Shown: one piece after another, positions 6,047 through 64,000 of the stretch
How the letters are laid out: each line of letters begins with the position of its first letter
Numbering within the stretch: the first letter of the stretch is position 1
Assembly (NCBI GenBank): GCA_019635415.1
Contig: JAHBZN010000005.1
Coordinates: 1-64,000, forward strand
Source: Ramlibacter sp.
GTDB lineage: Bacteria > Pseudomonadota > Gammaproteobacteria > Burkholderiales > Burkholderiaceae_C
Direction: 5' to 3'
Length of the DNA: 64,000 nt
Made by a program: the position numbers and the translations under genes
Notes under the pieces: generated by a model
Told to the model about the DNA's origin: nothing
What the model saw: the letters and a program-made list of their open reading frames with translations, nothing else
Database searches by the model: none

Positions 6047-6094
6047 GCTACATCTTTTGTAGCGTAAGGTGCCCGAACGACGGGGGCTACAGCC
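6047..6094 (+). repeat. 48-bp dispersed element, copy A
   Basis: The left arm GCTACATCTTTTGTAGC (17 b) is followed by 20 bases and then GGGCTACAGCC. It fills the space between the convergent peroxiredoxin and acetyltransferase genes. The left arm alone forms a 6-bp hairpin (GCTACA/TGTAGC), and its right half can instead pair with GCTACA of the terminal motif. Confidence 0.8.
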
Positions 6095-6671: not shown

Positions 6672-9600
6672 CTACGAGCCTGTGGCCGTGACGCTGCAGG
6701 TGACGAGAAACACCATGGTCGAGCTGGCGGGGAATGTCGGTAGCGTCAGGCCCGTGCCCTGCAGCCCGGCAATCGTGGGCGAGCCTGGACAGATCGCTCC
6801 GCCGCTTGCCGAGCAGCTCACTCCCGAACAACTCAGGCCGGCTGCGGCCGGATCGGTCAGCACGGTCCCATCCGCCGAATTGGGGCCGTTGTTCGTGATG
6901 GTGATGCCGTAAACCGTGGCTGATCCAGACACCACGGTGGACAGGGTGTTGGTCTTGGTCACCGTGATGACGGTGCTCACCGGAATGGTCACCGTGGCCT
7001 GGGCCGTGTTGTTGCTTGAGACGGGATCGATCACCCCTGCAGGGGGCGTCACGGTGGCCACGTTGACCTGCTCGCCCACGCCGCCGGCAATGGCCCGCAG
7101 CGTGAACGTGATGCTGCTGGAGGGTGGCAGCGTCATCGTGGCGTTGGCCTGCGAAGACACGGTGGCCCGCGCCGTGACCGTGGCCGACGCGCCACTGGTG
7201 GTCACGGCCGTGATGGTCATGCCGGCCAGCCCCGATGGCAGGGTGTCATTGAAGGTGGCGGCGGTCGCCGTGTTGGGTCCGAGGTTGCGCACGGTGACCG
7301 TGAACACGGTGGTCTGATCGGGCAGGATGACGGTGGGGGAGGCCGATTTCGTGATGCTCAGGTCGGCCTGCGGCCCGATATAGACAGCGGCCGTGCCGCT
7401 GTTGTTGCTCGGATCGGTGTCGGTGGTCCCGCTGGGCGGGGCGATGGTGGTGGTGTTGACCACACTGCCGATGGCCCCCGCCACGGCCCTGAGCACCACG
7501 GTCAGCGTGCTGCCCACGGGCAGCGTTGCCGTGCCGTTGAATGTGCTGCCCGCGACCGTGCGGCTGGTCAGTGTGCTGCTGCCCGCCACCGACGCGGACA
7601 CGAAGGTCAGCGTGCCCAGGCCGGAGGGCAGCGTGTCGGTGATCCGGGCCCCCGTGACCGCGCTGGGCCCGTTGTTGGCAAACGTCAATGTGAAGGTGGT
7701 GGTCTGACCCACCACGAGCGATGGTGTGTTGGCCACCTTGGTGGCCGACAGGTCGGCGCTGGGGCCGATCACCACGGTGGCGGTGGCGCTGTTGTTGCCC
7801 AGGTTGGTGTCGCTGGCGTTGGCGGGCGCGCTGACGGAGCCGGTATTCACCGGTGCCCCGTTGGCCGTTGCCACTGCCCGCAGCACGATGGTCAGCGTCT
7901 GGTTGACGGGGAGGGTGACCGTCCCGGTGAAAGTGCTGCCGCTGATGGCGCTGCTGGTCAGTGTGGTGGCACCGCTGGACCCGCTGGCAGTGACCAGCGC
8001 GAGCGAGCCCAGTCCTGCGGGCAGGGCGTCCACCACGGTGGCGGCGGTGGCCTGTTGTGGCCCCGAGTTGCCCAGGGTCAGCGTGAAATTGGTGGTCTGG
8101 CCGATCGACAGTGTGGTGGTACTCGCCTGCTTGCTGACGGACAGATCGGTCAGCGGCAGGCACTTGTAGCCCGAGTTGCTGACGGGATCGGCTGCTTCCG
8201 AGATGAGGACGTTGACGCCGGTGTTGCCGGGCAGGGCCCCGTGGTCCGCCCCTCCCGGCGGGCTGTCAGAGGTGTTGGTGATGCCGTTGGCACCGCCTGT
8301 CACGTCCACGGAAGCCGCGCCGGTCCTCACCACCACACCGCCGCCGCCGCCGCCGCCGCCGCTGTGCGCTCCCCCGGTGCCAGTCAGCCAGGCGTCTCCG
8401 CCCTGCCCCCCGCTGGCACTGACGACCAGCGAGCCGCCGGTCCAGTTGGGCGACACCACAATCACGCTGCCACCCGCCGCGCCGGCGCCCGCGGCATCGT
8501 TCAGCGGGTTGGTGTTGGCGCTTCCGCCGCGCACGTCGATGGTGCCACCGCCCGTCAATGCGCCGGCGCGCAGGAGCACGATGCCGCCGCCGGTGGCGCC
8601 GCTCATCTCCCGGGTGTTGTTGGAGTTGCCGTTCTGGTCGCCGGCACCGCCGCCGCCGCCCATCACCACGCGCGAAATGCCGGCGCCGCCAAAGCTGCCG
8701 CCGCCAAAGGCCGCCAGATGCTGTCCGGTGACGGCCTCGATGTTGGAGTAGTCGCTGGCGACGCCCGCCCAGCCCGCCGAACGCCAGCCGAAGCCGCCGC
8801 GGCCGCCGGCCCCGCCGTTGGCCCCGCCGCCACCGCCGCCGTTGTGATACACGTTGTTGTAGTACTGGCCGCCGCCGCCTGCGTTGCCCGGCGCACCGCG
8901 CGCATAGTCGAAATCCGCCGTGGTGCCCGTGCCCGGGTAGCCGATGTAGGCGGTGCCGGTGTTGTCCACCACCGTGCCCGTGGTGTCGACGCGGTCGAAG
9001 GGTGAACCATCGGTGAAGGTCCATCGCGGCGTGCCGGCGATGCCTTCGCCCTTGGACGCGTGCGACTGGCTTGCGGCGTTCGGGTCGCGCGAGCGGAACG
9101 GGTTATTGCCGTCGGTGTTGCTCGCCCGCCCGCCACCGCCACGGAAGCCGCGTGCCGACATGTCGATCGTCTGGCCATTGAAATCCATCGTCTTGGCCAC
9201 GTCGAGCGCCAGGACACCTCCGTTGGTGCCATTCCACGCCAGTCCTGTGAGGCTGCCGCCGAGCGTCAGGTTGCCGTATTGCGGCACGCGCACCACCTGG
9301 AAGCTGCGGCGCGGCGTGGTGCTCGTCGGGTTGGCCTGCACATAGGTGTACTGAAGCGGGGCCCCGGCAACGAAACTGGTGCCCGAGGTGCCGGGCCCGG
9401 CCGGAACGTACTCGTACTGGCCCACCCGGCAGGTGCCCGACGTTTCGAGATAACCCTGGGCCGGCCGGCCTGGGGCGCCGTCGCCATAGCTGTCGCTCTC
9501 GGTGCGGTCCATATCCACGCACTGCATCTGGATGAGCAATGCCAGGTCTCCCGCGGACCATGTGGCCGATCCACGGCCGCCGCTGAGGGTGATGGTGGGC

Positions 9601-15443: not shown

Positions 15444-16672
15444 CGCTGCTCTCGCGCCGCAACGCGGTCATCGTGTTCCTGGCGTTTGCCTTCACCTACT
15501 TCTTTTCGGCGCTGCTGCGGGCCATCACGGCCACGCTGTCGCCGGTGCTGACGCAGGAGTTCAGCCTGCATGCGCGTGATCTGGGTCTGCTGGCGGGGGG
15601 GTACTTCCTGGGCTTCGCCGCCACCCAGCTGCCGCTGGGGACCTGGCTGGACCGGCATGGTCCCAAGAAAGTCATCCTGGCCTTCCTGGGGGTTGCCGTG
15701 GCGGGCTGCGTGGCTTTCTCCATGGCCACCAGTTTTGCCGGCCTGCTGCTGGCGCGCATCCTGTGCGGCGTGGGGGTCAGTGCCTGCCTCATGGCCCCGC
15801 TCACGGGTTTTCGGCGCTGGCTGGAACCGGCGGTGCAGTTGCGTGCCAACTCATGGATGCTGATGACCGGTTCGCTGGGCATGGTGGCCTCGACGCTGCC
15901 TGTTCAGTGGCTGGTGCCCTGGATGGGTTGGCGCGCCCTGTTCTGGGGGCTGGCGGGTCTGGTGCTGTTGTCGATGGTGATACTGGCCTGGAAAGTCCCT
16001 GCCTGGGTGTCCGTGTCGGCACAGCCGGGTCATGGCCCGGCCAGCTACGCCAGTGTCTGGCGGCACCCTTACTTTCGCCGCATGGTGCCCGTGGGGTTTT
16101 TCAGCTACGGAGGGATGATCGCCATCCAGACGCTCTGGGCCGGTCCGTGGATGGTCCAGGTGGCGGGCCGCACGCCGACCGAGGCCGCCAGCGGGCTTTT
16201 CGTCATCAACCTGTCGATGCTGTGTGCCTTCTGGACCTGGGGACTGGTCAATCCGCTGCTGGCGCGCCGGGGCATTACCACCAACCGGCTCATCGCCTGT
16301 GGTGTGCCCTTGAGCCTGCTGGCAATTGCTATGATTATCGTAGCGGGAGGTCGAGCGGGGGCGGGGGCTTGGGCAGGTTTTTGCGTCGCTTCCACCTTCA
16401 TGTCCATCGCCCAGCCCGCCGTGGGCATGGCGTTTCCGCCCGCGCTGGCGGGGCGCGCGCTGTCGGCCTACAACCTCGTGATCTTCGCGGGGGTCTTCGT
16501 GGTCCAGTGGGGCATCGGCCTGCTCATCGACGCGTTTGCGGCCACCGGGCTCGATGTTACGGGGGCCTACCGATCGGCGATGGGCGTCTTTCTGGTCTGC
16601 AGCGCGCTGTCGTATGGCTGGTTCATGCTGGGCAGACGCGATAATCAGGACAACCCGAACCCGCTTCCATGA
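15440..16672 (+). CDS. MFS transporter
   Basis: A 410-residue, 12-helix major facilitator permease of unknown substrate. The MFS signature between helices 2 and 3 is present as GTWLDRHGPKKVI (residues 68-80), and the N-terminal helix begins VIVFLAFAFTYFF. Start and stop both overlap neighbours by four bases (ATGA at 15440 and at 16669), linking it to the upstream lipoprotein and to the downstream EIIA. Residues 297-312, in a predicted helix of the second half, are encoded by a divergent copy of the 48-bp element. Confidence 0.88.
   Translation: MTLLSRRNAVIVFLAFAFTYFFSALLRAITATLSPVLTQEFSLHARDLGLLAGGYFLGFAATQLPLGTWLDRHGPKKVILAFLGVAVAGCVAFSMATSFAGLLLARILCGVGVSACLMAPLTGFRRWLEPAVQLRANSWMLMTGSLGMVASTLPVQWLVPWMGWRALFWGLAGLVLLSMVILAWKVPAWVSVSAQPGHGPASYASVWRHPYFRRMVPVGFFSYGGMIAIQTLWAGPWMVQVAGRTPTEAASGLFVINLSMLCAFWTWGLVNPLLARRGITTNRLIACGVPLSLLAIAMIIVAGGRAGAGAWAGFCVASTFMSIAQPAVGMAFPPALAGRALSAYNLVIFAGVFVVQWGIGLLIDAFAATGLDVTGAYRSAMGVFLVCSALSYGWFMLGRRDNQDNPNPLP
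16328..16375 (+). repeat. 48-bp dispersed element, copy B, inside the MFS gene
   Basis: GCTATGATTATCGTAGC, then exactly 20 bases, then GGGCTTGGGCA. The left arm and the spacing fit; the terminal motif keeps only GGGCT. It is read in frame 0 in the sense direction and encodes AMIIVAGGRAGAGAWA within a membrane helix and the loop after it. Confidence 0.55.
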
Positions 16673-25888: not shown

Positions 25889-25936
25889 GGCTGTAGCCCA
25901 GGAGGGCTAGTCCTGGCGTGCTATGAAAACTGGAGC
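25889..25936 (-). repeat. 48-bp dispersed element, copy C
   Basis: On the minus strand: GCTCCAGTTTTCATAGC, 20 bases, GGGCTACAGCC (perfect terminal motif). It occupies the gap between the AraC-type gene (ending at 25947) and the EamA gene on the same strand, so it would be transcribed if the two are co-transcribed. Confidence 0.85.
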
Positions 25937-28317: not shown

Positions 28318-28617
28318 CTACAGCACCACCTTGACCATCGGGTGCGTGGACAGCGTGCGGTACAGCTCGTCGAGCTGCTCGCGGCTGGTGGCGGTGATGG
28401 TGATGGTCACGCCCAGGTAGTGGCCGGCCTTGCTGTCACGCAGTTCCACCGTCGCGGCGTCGAAGTCCGGGTCGAACTGCCGGGCAATCGCCGTCACCGC
28501 ATGGACGAAGCCATCCACGTTCTGTCCCATGACCTTGACCGGAAAGCGCGAGGGGTACTCGATCAGCGAGTCCTTTCGCGCATCCGGGATGGCAGCGGGC
28601 GGTGGGGAGGAGGTCAT
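28318..28617 (-). CDS. DUF493 / YbeD-like protein
   Basis: A 99-residue small cytosolic protein of the YbeD family, which adopts a ferredoxin-like ACT-type fold and has no established function. The core is SLIEYPSRFPVKVMG near residue 16, with VTITITATSREQLDELYRTLSTHPMVKVVL at the end (read in two parts). Its start overlaps the dat stop by ATGA, and it sits directly before lipB, the usual position in betaproteobacteria, which points to a link with lipoate metabolism without proving it. The open frame upstream of 28617 runs inside dat and is not real. Confidence 0.9.
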   Translation of the reverse strand: MTSSPPPAAIPDARKDSLIEYPSRFPVKVMGQNVDGFVHAVTAIARQFDPDFDAATVELRDSKAGHYLGVTITITATSREQLDELYRTLSTHPMVKVVL

Positions 28618-29510
28618 GCGGCGGCTTTCTCTTTCTGCTTGGCACGCTGATAGCCGGCGTGCAGCTTCTGGTAGATGGGGCCGGGTTGGCCGTTTCCAAC
28701 CGGCTGCCCGTCCAGTTGCGTGATGGGCAGCACCTCCTTGGTGGCCGACGACAGCATCAGTTCGTCGGCGTTGGCGACTTCGTCGCGGCTGATGCGGCGC
28801 AGCTCGAACGGAATGCCGGATTCCCGGCACAGTGTCTCGATCAGGCCGTAGCGGATGCCCTCGAGCACCAGGTGATCGCGCGGCGGGCCCATGAGGGTGC
28901 CGTTCTTCACCACCCAGACGTTGCAGGCGGCCCCCTCGCTCAGGTAGCCGTCGCGGAACATCACGGTTTCGACGGCGCCCTCGTCGGCGCTGATCTGGCG
29001 TGCAAACACCGCGCCCAGCAGGCTGGTGGCCTTGATGTGGGCCTTCTCCCAGCGGAAATCGTCCGCCGTCACGCAGGCCACGCCGCGCTCGCGCTCCAGT
29101 GCCGTGGGAGGCTTCATGAGGTTGCTCATGGCGAACACGGTGGGCGTGAGGTTGGCCGGCATCACGTGGTCGCGCAGCGCCACGCCGCGGGTCAGCTGGA
29201 TGTACACCAGTTGGTCGGTGTTCTGGGCTGCAGTCCCCGCCGAATGGGCGTAGTCTGCTATCAATTTCATAACAAGCTCAAGCCACTGCGCGTGCGTCAG
29301 CGGGTTGGCGATGCGCAGCGCTGCCAGGCTGCGGTCCAGCCGGGCCATGTGCTCGGCAAAGCGGAAGGGCTGGCCGGCATAGGCGGGCACCACTTCATAG
29401 ACGCCGTCGCCAAAAATGAAGCCGCGGTCCATCACGCTGATCCGGGCGTGCGGCAGCGTGGTGAATTCGCCGTTGAGGTAGCAGGGGAGGTCGGGAAGTT
29501 GAGGGGTCAT
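28614..29510 (-). CDS. dat: D-amino acid aminotransferase (class IV)
   Basis: A PLP-dependent fold-type IV transaminase that makes D-glutamate or D-alanine from the 2-oxo acids. The 298-residue protein has the family start YLNGEF, the PLP lysine Lys160 (AHIKATSLL) and the SEGAACNVWVV phosphate-binding region. It is about 10-15 residues longer than many relatives. The excess falls at residues 80-95 (VMKLIADYAHSAGTAA), which are exactly encoded by a copy of the 48-bp element. A branched-chain or aminodeoxychorismate specificity cannot be excluded. First gene of the dat-DUF493-lipB-lipA cluster, 15 bases after the MBL-fold gene. Confidence 0.9.
   Translation of the reverse strand: MTPQLPDLPCYLNGEFTTLPHARISVMDRGFIFGDGVYEVVPAYAGQPFRFAEHMARLDRSLAALRIANPLTHAQWLELVMKLIADYAHSAGTAAQNTDQLVYIQLTRGVALRDHVMPANLTPTVFAMSNLMKPPTALERERGVACVTADDFRWEKAHIKATSLLGAVFARQISADEGAVETVMFRDGYLSEGAACNVWVVKNGTLMGPPRDHLVLEGIRYGLIETLCRESGIPFELRRISRDEVANADELMLSSATKEVLPITQLDGQPVGNGQPGPIYQKLHAGYQRAKQKEKAAA
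29226..29273 (-). repeat. 48-bp dispersed element, copy D, inside dat
   Basis: GTTATGAAATTGATAGC, 20 bases, GGACTGCAGCC, in the sense direction and in frame 0, encoding residues 80-95 of the aminotransferase. Two mismatches to the terminal motif. The segment falls in a surface-exposed, length-variable stretch between LEL and the QLTRG strand. Confidence 0.7.
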
Positions 29511-41832: not shown

Positions 41833-41880
41833 GCCTGTAGCCCTTGACTGCTGGACATCATCAGCTATGAATTATGTAGC
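41833..41880 (-). repeat. 48-bp dispersed element, copy E, spanning a start codon
   Basis: On the minus strand: GCTACATAATTCATAGC, 20 bases, GGGCTACAGGC. The left arm, read on the plus strand, contains the ATG and first codons (MNYVA) of the following hydrolase, and the rest forms its 5' untranslated region. Confidence 0.82.
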
Positions 41881-51075: not shown

Positions 51076-51123
51076 GCTCTGCTTTTGATAGCAGACAGTG
51101 GCCGCCCCGCCTGGGCTACAGCT
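51076..51123 (+). repeat. 48-bp dispersed element, copy F
   Basis: GCTCTGCTTTTGATAGC, 20 bases, GGGCTACAGCT. It lies between the convergent gatB and DUF4124 genes; its last two bases fall in the stop codon of the DUF4124 gene. Confidence 0.85.
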
Positions 51124-54488: not shown

Positions 54489-54865
54489 AGTCCGGTGATT
54501 TCCTTGCCGCATGAATTGGGGGAAACGGTACCAGACCATACGGCGCTGATCTGTAGGCCATTCTCGGTTTCGTCGAGTGCCAGCACGCCGTTGTCCACAT
54601 CCCCCGCGAGGGCGGAGCGCTCGCCGTCGCGATTGATGGCCCCGCGCAGGCCGCCGGCGTACTCCGGGTGCTTCTCGAACAGCACGGTGGCCGAGCCGGC
54701 GGGGCGGTCGAAGGTCACCTGCCACAGGCCGTACAGCTGCACCGGCAGCAGGTCCTCGGGGGCCGGACAGCCGGCCGTGGCCGCTGTTTGGGGCTCATTG
54801 AGGCCGGTAGCCCATGCCGGATGGATGCAGAGTGCTATCAAAAATGGAGCAAATGCCTGCTTCAT
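54422..54865 (-). CDS. small exported protein of unknown function
   Basis: A 147-residue predicted periplasmic protein. The signal peptide (residues 1-20, cleavage after AWA) is followed by a beta-rich domain with three Cys residues, a central Asp/Asn-rich DGERSALAGDVDNG segment and a final SFVLRKLPGW. I do not recognise a family. Residues 6-21, the core and cleavage site of the signal peptide, are encoded exactly by copy G of the 48-bp element. The start overlaps the rep stop (ATGA) and the 3' end overlaps pldA, so rep, this gene and pldA form one unit. Confidence 0.78.
   Translation of the reverse strand: MKQAFAPFLIALCIHPAWATGLNEPQTAATAGCPAPEDLLPVQLYGLWQVTFDRPAGSATVLFEKHPEYAGGLRGAINRDGERSALAGDVDNGVLALDETENGLQISAVWSGTVSPNSCGKEITGLWRRSKDNQERSFVLRKLPGWR
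54803..54850 (-). repeat. 48-bp dispersed element, copy G, encoding a signal peptide
   Basis: GCTCCATTTTTGATAGC, 20 bases, GGGCTACCGGC, sense and in frame 0. It encodes APFLIALCIHPAWATG, the hydrophobic core and cleavage region of the exported protein at 54422-54865. Confidence 0.85.
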
Positions 54866-59291: not shown

Positions 59292-61121
59292 CTACCAGGT
59301 GTCGATGGCCCTGCTGGCACCGGGGGAGGCCGGCGCCGCCGACGCCAGGCCGCGGGCCAGCCAGGCGCGGGTGTCGGCCGGGTCGATCACCGCGTCGATC
59401 TCGAGCGTGGCGGCCATGTTCAGGGCGCTGCCGGCGGCATATTGCCGGTCCACCAGCTGCTGGTACAGCGCCTCGCGTGCGGGGCCCTCGGGCTGGGCCT
59501 CGAGCTCCTTGCGGTAGCCCAGCCGCACCGCGCCCTCCAGGCCCATAGCGCCGAATTCGCCGGTGGGCCAGGCCACGGTGAACACCGGCGAGTGGAAGCC
59601 GCCCGCGCACATGGCCATGGCACCCAGCCCATAGCCCTTGCGCAGCACGACGCTGAACAAGGGCACGCGCAGGTGGGCCGCGGCGATGAACAGGCGGCTC
59701 ACATGCCGCACCTGGGCCTGGGCTTCGGTGTCGGGCCCGACCATGAAGCCCGGCGTGTCCACGAGGCTGATCAACGGCAGGCCGTGGGCATTGCACAGCT
59801 GCATGAAGCGCGCGGCCTTGTCGGCGGCGTCGGCGTCGATCGCGCCGCCCAGGTGCTGCGGGTTGCTGGCCAGCAGGCCGACCGGGCGGCCCTCGATGCG
59901 CGCCAGCGCGGTGTGGATGCCCGGGCCGAAGCCGGCGCGCAGCGGCAGCAGCGAGCCCGCATCGGCCACGCCGGCCATGGCCTGCCGCGTGTCGTAGACG
60001 CGCAGCCGGTTCTCGGGCACCACGTCGCGCAGCGCCGAGACCTCGGGGCCGGTCCATTCGCGGGTGCAGCCCTGGAAGAACGACAGGTAGTGCCGGGCGG
60101 CGGCGACCGCCGCGGCCTCGTCGTCCACCAGCACGTCGATCACGCCGTTGCCGTGCTGCACCTCGCTCGGGCCGATCTGCTCGGGTCGGTACACGCCCAG
60201 GCCGCCGCCCTCGACCATGGCCGGCCCGCCCATGCCGATGTTGCTGCCGCGCGTGGCAATGATCACGTCGCAGCAGCCCAGCAGCGCGGCGTTGCCGGCA
60301 AAGCAGCGGCCGGCCGCCACGCCCACCACCGGCACCTGGCCGTTGAGCCGGGCGAAGCTCGCGAAGGTGCTCACGTGCAAGCCGGCCACGATGGGCATGT
60401 CGGTGTCGCCGGGCCGGCCGCCGCCGCCTTCGGCGAACAGCACCACGGGCAGCTTCTGCTGCAGGGCAACGCCCAGCAGCCGGTCGGTCTTCTGGTGGTT
60501 GCGCATGCCCTGGGTGCCGGCCAGCACCGTGGCGTCGTAGGCCATGACCACGGCGCGCGCGGCCTCGGCGCCCACCTGCGCGGCATTGACGCTGCCGATG
60601 CCGGTGACCATGCCGTCGGCCGGGGTGTTGCGCACCAGGTCGTCGGCGCTGCGGCGCCCGGCCTGCGCCGCCACGGCCAGCGCGCCGTACTCGATGAAGC
60701 TGCCCTCGTCGCACAGGTCGGCGATGTTCTCGCGCGCGGTGCGCAGGCCCAGCGCATGGCGCTTGGCCACGGCGTCGGGCCGGCTGGCGTCGGCGGTGAA
60801 GGCGTGGCGATCGTGCACGCGCTGCAGGTCGGCTCGCGGCCCCACCGGGGCCTTCACGCCGGGGTTTGGGGTCAAATCGGGTTGTAGCCCAGTGTCTGCG
60901 GCGGTTGTCTGCTCTGAAATCAATAGCACGTCGCCTTCGTTTACCGTTTCTCCGGCGGCAAAGCGCAGCTCGCGAACGCGGCCCGGCGTGGTGGCACGAA
61001 GCTCATGCTCCATCTTCATGGCTTCGAGCACCAGCAGCAGGTCGCCGGCTGCCACAGTGTCGCCGGGTTGCACCAGCCATTGGACGATCTGGGCCTGCAG
61101 GGGGGAGCGGAGTTCGGTCAT
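59292..61121 (-). CDS. biotinyl domain-carboxyltransferase fusion (acyl-CoA carboxylase)
   Basis: A 609-residue fusion. Residues 1-70 are a biotinyl/lipoyl domain with the attachment site EAMKMEHE (Lys36). Residues 70-100 form a Thr/Pro-rich linker, partly encoded by copy H of the 48-bp element. Residues about 105-600 are an acyl-CoA carboxylase beta-type carboxyltransferase with both crotonase-like halves: GMVTGIGSVN and GRCFAGNAALLGCCDVI in the first, SLVDTPGFMVGPDTEAQ and RKGYGLGAMAMCAGG in the second. It should move CO2 from biotin to an acyl-CoA. No biotin carboxylase gene is in the window, so that subunit must come from elsewhere. ATG at 61121 preferred over 61130. Confidence 0.9.
   Translation of the reverse strand: MTELRSPLQAQIVQWLVQPGDTVAAGDLLLVLEAMKMEHELRATTPGRVRELRFAAGETVNEGDVLLISEQTTAADTGLQPDLTPNPGVKAPVGPRADLQRVHDRHAFTADASRPDAVAKRHALGLRTARENIADLCDEGSFIEYGALAVAAQAGRRSADDLVRNTPADGMVTGIGSVNAAQVGAEAARAVVMAYDATVLAGTQGMRNHQKTDRLLGVALQQKLPVVLFAEGGGGRPGDTDMPIVAGLHVSTFASFARLNGQVPVVGVAAGRCFAGNAALLGCCDVIIATRGSNIGMGGPAMVEGGGLGVYRPEQIGPSEVQHGNGVIDVLVDDEAAAVAAARHYLSFFQGCTREWTGPEVSALRDVVPENRLRVYDTRQAMAGVADAGSLLPLRAGFGPGIHTALARIEGRPVGLLASNPQHLGGAIDADAADKAARFMQLCNAHGLPLISLVDTPGFMVGPDTEAQAQVRHVSRLFIAAAHLRVPLFSVVLRKGYGLGAMAMCAGGFHSPVFTVAWPTGEFGAMGLEGAVRLGYRKELEAQPEGPAREALYQQLVDRQYAAGSALNMAATLEIDAVIDPADTRAWLARGLASAAPASPGASRAIDTW
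60880..60927 (-). repeat. 48-bp dispersed element, copy H, in the fusion linker
   Basis: GCTATTGATTTCAGAGC, 20 bases, GGGCTACAACC. Sense direction, but shifted relative to copies D and G: the first base is the third position of a codon. It encodes LLISEQTTAADTGLQ between the biotinyl and carboxyltransferase domains. Confidence 0.8.
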
Positions 61122-62251: not shown

Positions 62252-64000
62252 TCAGGCCAGCAGCGCCACATTCCCCCCGGCCGCCGTGGTGTTGATGGTC
62301 AGCGTCTGCTCGGCGCAGAAGCGGTACAGGTAGTGCGGGCCGCCGGCCTTGGGGCCGGTGCCGCTCAGGCCTTCACCGCCGAACGGCTGCACCCCCACCA
62401 CGGCACCGATCATGTTGCGGTTGACGTAGACGTTGCCCACGTGGGCACGGGCCGCCAGCGCCTGGGCCCGGCTGTCGATGCGGGTCTGGATGCCCAGCGT
62501 CAGGCCGTAGCCCAGTGCGTTGATCTCGTCGATCACGGCCTGCGGGTCGCCGCGCCAGCGCACGATGTGCAGCACCGGCCCGAAGATCTCCTGTTTCATG
62601 TCGGCGATGCGCGCGATCTCGAACGCCTGTGGCGCTACGAAATGCATAGCGCCTTGTGACCGCGGCGCCTGGGCTACCAGCACTTTGGCCTCTGAACCCA
62701 GGCGCTGAAGGTGGCGGCCGATGCCGTCGAACGCCTCGCGGTCGATGACCGGCCCCACGTCGGTGGCCAGGTCGGCCGGGTCACCGGTCACCAGCTCGCG
62801 CGCCGCGCCCTGGATCATCTCGATCACGCCGTCGGCGATGCCCTCGTGCACGCACAGCAGCCGCAGGGCCGAGCAGCGCTGGCCGGCGGAGCGGAAGGCG
62901 CTTTGCACCACGGCATCGGCCACCTGCTCGGGCAGGGCCGTGCTGTCCACCAGCATCGCGTTGATGCCGCCGGTCTCGGCGATCAGCGGCACGATGGGGC
63001 CGTCCTTGGCGGCCAGCGCGCGCTGGATGATCTTGGCCACCTGGGTCGAGCCAGTGAACACCACACCGGCGATGCGCGGCTGCGCCACCAGGGCGGCGCC
63101 CACGGTTTCACCGGGGCCGTGCAGCAGTTGCAGCGCGTCGGCCGGCACGCCGGCGGCGTGCAGCAGCCGGACGGCCTCCAGCGCCACGCCGGGGGTCTGT
63201 TCGGCGGGCTTGGCCAGGACCGTGTTGCCCGTGGCCAGCGCGGCGGCCACCTGGCCGACAAAGATGGCCAGCGGGAAGTTCCAGGGGCTGATGCAGACCC
63301 AGGCGCCGCGCGCGGTCTGCCTCAGCTCGTTGCTTTCCCCCGTGGGTCCGGGCAGGGCCAGGGGCTGCATGATGCGCTCGGCCTCTGCGGCGTAGTAGCG
63401 CAGGAAGTCCACCGCCTCGCGCACTTCGGCCACGGTGTCGCCCCAGGTCTTGAAGGCTTCCTTGACCAGCAGGGCGCAAAAGCGCGGCGTCTGCGCCTCC
63501 AGCGCGTCGGCCGCCTGGCGCAGCAGCGCGGCGCGCCGGGCCACCGGCGTGCGGCTCCAGGCCGGGAAGGCCGCGACGGCCCGTGCCGTGGCATCGGCGG
63601 CCCGGGCGGCGTCCGCGGTGGCCACGGCGGGCACCGCGGTGGCGGCGAGCGCCCGCAGCAGCGGCTCGCGCGTCGTCGGCACGGTCAGGTCCAGCCCCGC
63701 GCTGTTGATGCGGCCGGGTCCCAGCAGTTCGGCCGGCAGCGGGAGCGTGGCCGCCGGGTCGAGCCGCAGCGGCGAGATCAACAGCTCGTCCATGCCCACG
63801 GACTCGTCGGCCAGCTGGTGCACGAAGGAGGAGTTGGCGCCGTTTTCCAGCAGACGGCGCACCAGGTAGGCCAGCAGATCGCGGTGCTTGCCCACCGGCG
63901 CGTAGACGCGGCAGCTCACCAGCGGATTCTTCAGCACCTCGCGGTAGATGCCTTCGCCCATGCCGTGCAGGCGCTGCATCTCGAAGCGACCGCCGCTGCG
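62252..64000 (-). CDS. putA: proline utilisation protein PutA, C-terminal part (partial at window edge)
   Basis: Bifunctional proline dehydrogenase / 1-pyrroline-5-carboxylate dehydrogenase. The frame runs off the right edge; the visible 582 residues begin in the end of the FAD-dependent PRODH domain (RFEMQRLHGMGE) and include the whole aldehyde dehydrogenase domain. That domain shows SPWNFPLAIF, the catalytic Glu in LIAETGGIN, the catalytic Cys in SAGQRCSALR, and EIFGPVLHIV. It ends soon after the dehydrogenase domain (AAGGNVALLA), so no extra C-terminal domain is present. One stretch (LVAQAPRSQGAMHFVA) is encoded by copy I of the 48-bp element in antisense. Confidence 0.95.
   Translation of the reverse strand, partial: RSGGRFEMQRLHGMGEGIYREVLKNPLVSCRVYAPVGKHRDLLAYLVRRLLENGANSSFVHQLADESVGMDELLISPLRLDPAATLPLPAELLGPGRINSAGLDLTVPTTREPLLRALAATAVPAVATADAARAADATARAVAAFPAWSRTPVARRAALLRQAADALEAQTPRFCALLVKEAFKTWGDTVAEVREAVDFLRYYAAEAERIMQPLALPGPTGESNELRQTARGAWVCISPWNFPLAIFVGQVAAALATGNTVLAKPAEQTPGVALEAVRLLHAAGVPADALQLLHGPGETVGAALVAQPRIAGVVFTGSTQVAKIIQRALAAKDGPIVPLIAETGGINAMLVDSTALPEQVADAVVQSAFRSAGQRCSALRLLCVHEGIADGVIEMIQGAARELVTGDPADLATDVGPVIDREAFDGIGRHLQRLGSEAKVLVAQAPRSQGAMHFVAPQAFEIARIADMKQEIFGPVLHIVRWRGDPQAVIDEINALGYGLTLGIQTRIDSRAQALAARAHVGNVYVNRNMIGAVVGVQPFGGEGLSGTGPKAGGPHYLYRFCAEQTLTINTTAAGGNVALLA
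62634..62681 (+). repeat. 48-bp dispersed element, copy I, antisense in putA
   Basis: GCTACGAAATGCATAGC, 20 bases, GGGCTACCAGC, opposite to the coding strand of putA. It encodes LVAQAPRSQGAMHFVA in a length-variable loop before the conserved EIFGP motif of the dehydrogenase domain. Confidence 0.78.

Follow-up and report, generated by a model that had tools for sequence, protein, structure and literature searches.

The D-amino-acid aminotransferase-like gene in the window, by which we mean the whole stretch of 64,000 nucleotides of Ramlibacter sp. DNA that was analysed, carries at residues 80-95 an in-frame copy of a dispersed repeat, here called the GCTA-arm repeat, which occurs in abundance in many members of a single family-level clade within the Burkholderiales. 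Our preferred reading, to which we give a probability of about two in three, is that this segment is an old, domesticated copy of the repeat that is eroding to preferred codons in some lineages. The gene (28614..29510, minus strand) encodes a class IV protein of 298 amino acids, and its identification as a D-amino-acid aminotransferase (DAAT) in a preliminary description was confirmed by the open reading frame together with profile matches: D-amino-acid transaminase is the top NCBIfam model on its product, the curated cut-off being reached by none. The nearest solved structures, 4m0j and 4tm5, are both DAATs of Burkholderia thailandensis and the fold is as in known DAATs, with the top-scoring 4m0j showing a 3-residue gap against the window protein in the repeat segment.

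Residues 80-95 (VMKLIADYAHSAGTAA) are encoded exactly by positions 29226..29273 of the minus strand, beginning at a codon boundary. Read from 29273 to 29226, the copy starts with a 17-bp imperfect palindromic arm (GTTATGAAATTGATAGC, 29257..29273, minus strand), which is translated as V-M-K-L-I-A and matches 11 of 12 informative family positions, and continues with a 31-base tail. It is an imperfect copy, with GTTAT where the family has GCTAY and GGGACTGCAGCC where the family has GGGCTACAGCC, and it was left out of the 51 copies from the same genome used to build a position weight matrix (PWM), since a start of GTTAT does not satisfy the pattern by which they were gathered. This PWM nevertheless gave the 48-mer 42.8 bits, a score that none of 20,000 base shuffles attained (45.0 bits with another background), so that the correspondence first described, base for base from a codon boundary, is borne out both by the exact coordinates and by the PWM match. 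It is hardly credible that the codons of A-x-K-L-I-A resemble the repeat by chance: several element-free genes do agree with the arm here at 7 of its 12 positions, but a match of at least 10 of 12 occurs within the segment in 37 of 156 homologues and elsewhere in the same genes at one of 241,422 control positions, and the tail matches too, the PWM score being spread over all 48 positions.

Members of the family consist of a GCTAY-N7-RTAGC arm that is separated by about 20 bases from GGGCTACAGCC, with an AT-rich tail at the end, for 48-60 bp overall. The consensus of the 51 copies from the window's own genome (G000) is GCTAC-n-AATTT-n-ATAGC-nnAnn-GTGnCC-nnCnGGCAAGGGCTACAGCC, followed by a weaker AT-rich tail (ATTT), and their 48-bp core has a GC content of 54.2%. 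The strict arm pattern matched 57 + 59 = 116 times in the 4.2 Mb of this genome, perfect palindromes scoring on both strands, and 0 + 1 times in the reversed control. At least one match was found in 80 of 150 genomes of the same taxonomic family (range 0 to 467 per genome), and of 200 genomes examined from the order, 195 lie outside that family, with 12 as the highest count among them (in G233, with 0 in the control). The tails are lineage-specific: G036, a genome of another genus, has TGCTTGAGCAGTATATACATGGGCTGGAGGC, and the congener G001, the sister species of the window's genome, has GGACTCCAG where G000 has GGGCTACAG. At arm positions 5 and 13 of the 51 G000 copies the combination GCTAC..ATAGC was counted 27 times, GCTAT..GTAGC 12 times and GCTAC..GTAGC only once (three times in 23 G001 copies); a palindrome closed by C and G thus seems to be avoided in the G000 arms.

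The PWM scan of the window gave nine matches of at least 18 bits, the aminotransferase copy among them, and the reversed window gave none. Family copies on the plus strand lie at 6047..6094 (47.9 bits, with a copy at the same site in the sister species), 51076..51123 (42.4 bits) and 62634..62681 (37.4 bits, within the ALDH part of a minus-strand proline dehydrogenase/ALDH gene), and those on the minus strand at 41833..41880 (55.4 bits), 54803..54850 (37.5 bits) and 60880..60927 (31.6 bits, in an open frame that is hardly coding-like on either side, 0.02). A further family site, at 25889..25936 (minus strand), comes from the PWM scan and the comparison with the sister species, and a weak match at 16328..16375 (plus strand, 24.0 bits) is doubtful. 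The family was detected by pattern and PWM scans; in a seed-12 repeat search with a minimum length of 30 it was absent from the 20 direct repeat families listed, out of 35. Elsewhere in the window, positions 7226-8099 hold three 91-nt copies of another sequence, about 390 bases apart and with 66-70% identity to the first, perhaps a repeated protein domain.

In regards to the length of the segment, we aligned 163 genes (110 + 53), that is the window's own and 162 others, which came to 156 distinct homologues once six duplicates were removed; 80 came in as the best of 318 matches in the database, a sample that favours close relatives. The interval from W76 to I104 has 29 residues in 87 of these homologues, 21 in 32, 25 in 20 and other lengths in 17, and it is mostly 21 or 25 residues long in the basal element-free homologues. 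Since the window protein has 29 residues, it shows a net gain of 4 or 8 residues and not of 16, and the earlier statements that the protein exceeds many relatives by about 16 residues, and that these residues are missing from others, did not hold. What had been named as refuting the insertion, homologues that show these residues without the repeat, was largely observed: 87 of the 156 have the same segment length, and in G001, where the DNA is not repeat-like, 12 of the 16 residues are kept. No empty site flanking a 29-residue form was found among the homologues compared, and tree support inside the clade is weak (0.04-0.82 at several nodes, 0.785 at the MRCA, with four 25-residue members within). 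The inequality between a net gain of 4 or 8 codons and an element of 16 or more also counts against the reading that we prefer.

The codons of the segment bear the mark of the repeat beyond the window. At residue 84, ATA makes up 37 of 77 Ile codons as compared with 49 of 2,051 at other Ile positions, and at residue 83, TTA makes up 23 of 154 Leu codons as compared with 48 of 4,194 at other Leu positions, the significance of such simple tests (Fisher p) being overstated because the species are not independent. Both kinds of data were available for 83 genomes, of which the 13 that carry element-like DNA in their aminotransferase have 17 to 467 arm-pattern matches and the 70 that do not have a median of 0; when genes of length at least 27 are considered, copy number differs between the 13 with and the 15 without the element (p 0.0009, kinship being ignored). 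Four copy-rich genomes are without element-like DNA in the aminotransferase, namely those of L033 (315 matches), L026 (274), L136 (181) and L019 (154). In the most copy-rich genome (G099, 467 matches) the aminotransferase match, L024, has one TGA inside.

The comparison with G001 bears directly on the history of the segment. The 12 shared residues are encoded there by non-repeat codons, and nucleotide identity to the window gene is 67% in the segment versus 89-91% outside it. The codon has changed at 9 of 15 identical residues in the G001 segment, versus 53 of 258 elsewhere (Fisher p 0.0015), and GC3 in the segment is 0.59 in the window copy and 0.91 in G001. The simplest reading of these codons would be that the repeat is ancestral and that the G001 codons have drifted to preferred ones.

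The preliminary description had instead taken the segment for an insertion of 16 residues, and a recent insertion of a 48-bp mobile element of the REP, RPE or MITE kind could indeed account for its placement in frame. For the aminotransferase of the window we consider such an event improbable, given that 87 of 156 homologues are equally long, that the net gain is 4 or 8, and that most of the peptide is present in G001; the idea of a full in-frame insertion fares better in another genus. In L031, a homologue from G036, the W76-I104 interval has 41 residues, a +16-codon form, as opposed to 25 in L036, which belongs to the same six-member clade (support 0.93), and its extra DNA scores 61.9 bits against the G036 subtype of the element (the leave-one-out median of 19 true copies being 57.5) versus 19.0 bits against the common aminotransferase form. 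By length and subtype, L031 thus has the look of a fresh insertion of its own genome's element subtype in the same loop. The rest of that clade (L024, L058, L067 and L113) has the common 29-residue form with element-like DNA. L037, which has the element at nine codons after the W and a length of 36, may represent a second separate insertion; its position and length suggest so, and the matrix prefers the common form (33.6 bits, versus 22.0 for the own-genome subtype). L124, with a length of 38, was rejected as a further insertion, being negative against all four matrices at one offset and agreeing with the arm at no more than 8 of its 12 positions, whichever strand is read.

Copies of the repeat are also found in other genes. 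Out of 74 copies scored in the fetched genome parts, 15 are in open frames whose usage is coding-like on either flank; the same holds for 225 of 402 positions drawn at random from these stretches, so that the element is depleted in genes yet frequent. Eight of the 15 run along the gene and seven against it. The divisibility of 48 bases by three is as had been pointed out, but the frame is left intact less generally than that would imply, because RTAGC puts a TAG in one arm frame per orientation; 13 of the 15 copies use the arm frame GCT AYN NNN NNN RTA GCN, one cause being that a TAG invariably closes another frame. Pfam matches were obtained for eight of the 15 host genes, and the hosts so named include acyl-CoA dehydrogenase, aconitase, proline dehydrogenase/ALDH, a sodium/hydrogen exchanger, a FemAB-like protein and NIF3; copies with weaker coding scores lie in SURF1, DprA and enoyl-CoA hydratase.

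In two of these genes the recent-insertion reading finds some further support. The acyl-CoA dehydrogenase copy (L005, 1470-1517) goes with a gain of 8 residues relative to element-free relatives, the compared region being 67 residues long in G000 and G001, 64 in two genomes with element-like DNA and, for the others among the 12 rows listed, 59 in seven and 61 in one. For the aconitase copy (L188, 1452-1499) the gain is up to 12 relative to the shortest element-free homologue, with 67 residues in G000 and three others, 71 in G007 and 55-63 in nine others among the 14 rows listed; one of these nine shorter rows, G010 with 63 residues, has arm-like DNA. The NIF3 copy (L182, 1407-1454), present in five genomes of four genera, comes with no gain over the element interval (17 residues, against 17-18 without the element, among the 14 rows listed), and insertion is not the sole route of the repeat into genes because NIF3 shows no such gain.

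The repeat could also serve as a recognition motif on the DNA and evolve mostly in place, in the manner of uptake-sequence dialects or chromosome-organising sites, with a trans factor drawing codons toward the motif wherever A-x-x-x-I/V-A is tolerated. The NIF3 element is in agreement with this, as is the use of both orientations, and so is the comparison of 30 G000 copies with 400 kb of G001, in which 16 copies were alignable throughout. Fourteen of these have the element at the same site in both congeners, which argues against recent insertion in that no recent movement is seen there, and two (the aminotransferase and L175) have related DNA without the element in G001. At L175 (1462-1509) the copy scores 63.1 bits, and its G001 counterpart is nearly equal in length and repeat-free, as in the aminotransferase. 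Mean identity over the 14 orthologous pairs is 86% in the arms, 82% in the flanks and 68% in the tails. At position 40, 9 of the 14 pairs have G in G000 but A in G001 (binomial p 0.0003, background 0.19), a parallel change that includes the in-gene copies of aconitase (L188) and L176, and variable positions retain their locus-specific base in 47 of 70 cases in orthologous pairs versus 0.27 in non-orthologous ones. Wholesale gene conversion between copies is disfavoured because it would erase these retained bases. The parallel change in this one species pair suggests that a trans-acting preference for the motif may have changed between lineages.

Evolution in place as the main origin is possible, but in our estimation rather doubtful. 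The length gains of L031, acyl-CoA dehydrogenase and aconitase would be hard to obtain by point change, the tail of the home genome is the better fit for only 11 of the 14 copies in G000 and 10 of the 14 in G001, and the G001 copies were gathered partly with a pattern naming GGACT, a slight bias. No candidate factor was found. Uptake motifs are also much shorter, and 48 bp would be long for one.

The old, domesticated copy that we favour would have entered the aminotransferase gene long ago, through an insertion that was later trimmed or else by overwriting where there was partial homology. Element-free genes encode helices such as A-R-K-L-I-A where the arm encodes A-x-K-L-I-A, and the arm would have replaced the last part of a helix that was already there and had almost the same sequence, the element tail becoming the loop between helix and strand with a net gain of 4 or 8 residues. 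The best of five AlphaFold2 models, built with 30 sequences, predicts a helix at residues 73-90 (29241..29294, minus strand) whose C-terminal part is repeat-encoded, then a loop, then a strand at 100-107; mean pLDDT is 79.8 overall, and 97, 95 and 92 for residues 71-80, 81-90 and 91-100. According to this model the repeat-encoded segment is the end of the helix plus the following loop, that is a loop lengthened by 4-8 residues and the C-terminal part of a helix rather than the extra surface loop that had been proposed. The remaining four models have a low mean pLDDT (50-61), which counts against our reading. The peptide would today be plain enzyme scaffold, and the DNA form would tend to persist in many-copy genomes and to decay to preferred codons elsewhere. 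The repeat probably acts at the DNA level, through a putative lineage-specific factor, because it is found in genes in both orientations and showed no conserved RNA fold.

RNAalifold on 51 copies gave a pairing of 4 bp only, at about -2 kcal/mol and with a covariation term of 0, and for three subtypes, represented by 51, 23 and 19 copies, the predicted helices had 3-4 bp with covariation of 0 to -0.1, on which grounds a role of the repeat as an RNA structure was set aside. Against Rfam nothing reached gathering level, and the five weak matches (E up to 5) do not lie at any copy. The likeness to Rickettsia palindromic elements (RPE) put forward in the preliminary description stands in so far as this is a dispersed repeat in frame within a protein gene, and fails in so far as no stable RNA stem-loop is seen. 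RPE, as described in PMC3733652, are short dispersed repeats in frame within many unrelated protein genes, and the GCTA-arm repeat is likewise in frame inside several unrelated protein genes (15 of 74 copies). It differs from RPE in the organism, in having no long stable RNA hairpin and in a net protein gain that is often smaller than the element, the two being likened by description and not by sequence.

The same paper describes GTAG REP as small, palindromic, high-copy elements with an arm end of GTAG/CTAC that are mostly intergenic and in part intragenic. The GCTA-arm repeat resembles them in its high copy number and its partly intragenic position. Set beside a REP palindrome of 20-40 bp with a GTAG tag at one end, its 17-bp arm pair ends in GCTAC/RTAGC, but its unit is of at least 48 bp with a conserved non-palindromic tail. 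RAYT transposases are unlikely as its carriers: G000 has a single Y1_Tnp match, and the 3.5 kb surrounding it (L330) contain no repeat of at least 15 bits, and G021 has 178 pattern matches with no Y1_Tnp match, so that mobilisation by RAYT was set aside, the repeats neither flanking nor tracking Y1_Tnp in these genomes. In G016 there are 20 Y1_Tnp matches, several of them equal in score; most relatives have one. When the aligned copies were inspected by eye for MITE features, no terminal inverted repeats of 15-30 bp at both ends and no target-site duplication were apparent.

We found no published description that could be matched to the GCTA-arm repeat in the portions of the literature consulted, where the passages of PMC2755013 mention CRISPR only and the nearest printed candidate is BRE, a repeat of Bordetella and Comamonadaceae of which some copies lie wholly within coding sequences (PMC3110155). 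The Bordetella BRE is given there as 75-91 bp long, about 69% GC and sometimes tandem, unlike the 48-60 bp and the 54.2% GC of the core found here; the two are set apart by length and GC content, and they may be related or even identical.

The DNA uptake sequences of Neisseriaceae are of high copy number, occur in genes as well as between them and form lineage dialects. The GCTA-arm repeat is like them in being of high copy number, in lying in and between genes and in having lineage-specific tails. We would also raise, as a tentative proposal with the odds against it, that a 48-60 bp motif, served by a putative lineage factor and held at fixed sites including core metabolic genes, shifts its dialect in parallel, and that segments of the aminotransferase, acyl-CoA dehydrogenase, aconitase and NIF3 may be shaped by this DNA-level signal and not by protein function alone.

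One repeat in one enzyme is thus found in a series of states, from a fresh-looking full-length form (L031) through an apparently domesticated one (the window) to a peptide kept without the DNA signature (G001), and with this series what becomes of in-frame repeats can be put to a direct test. The tails of the two congeners, changed in parallel at common sites, point to a putative DNA-level constraint on coding sequence, which would matter for analyses of codon usage and protein evolution in this clade.
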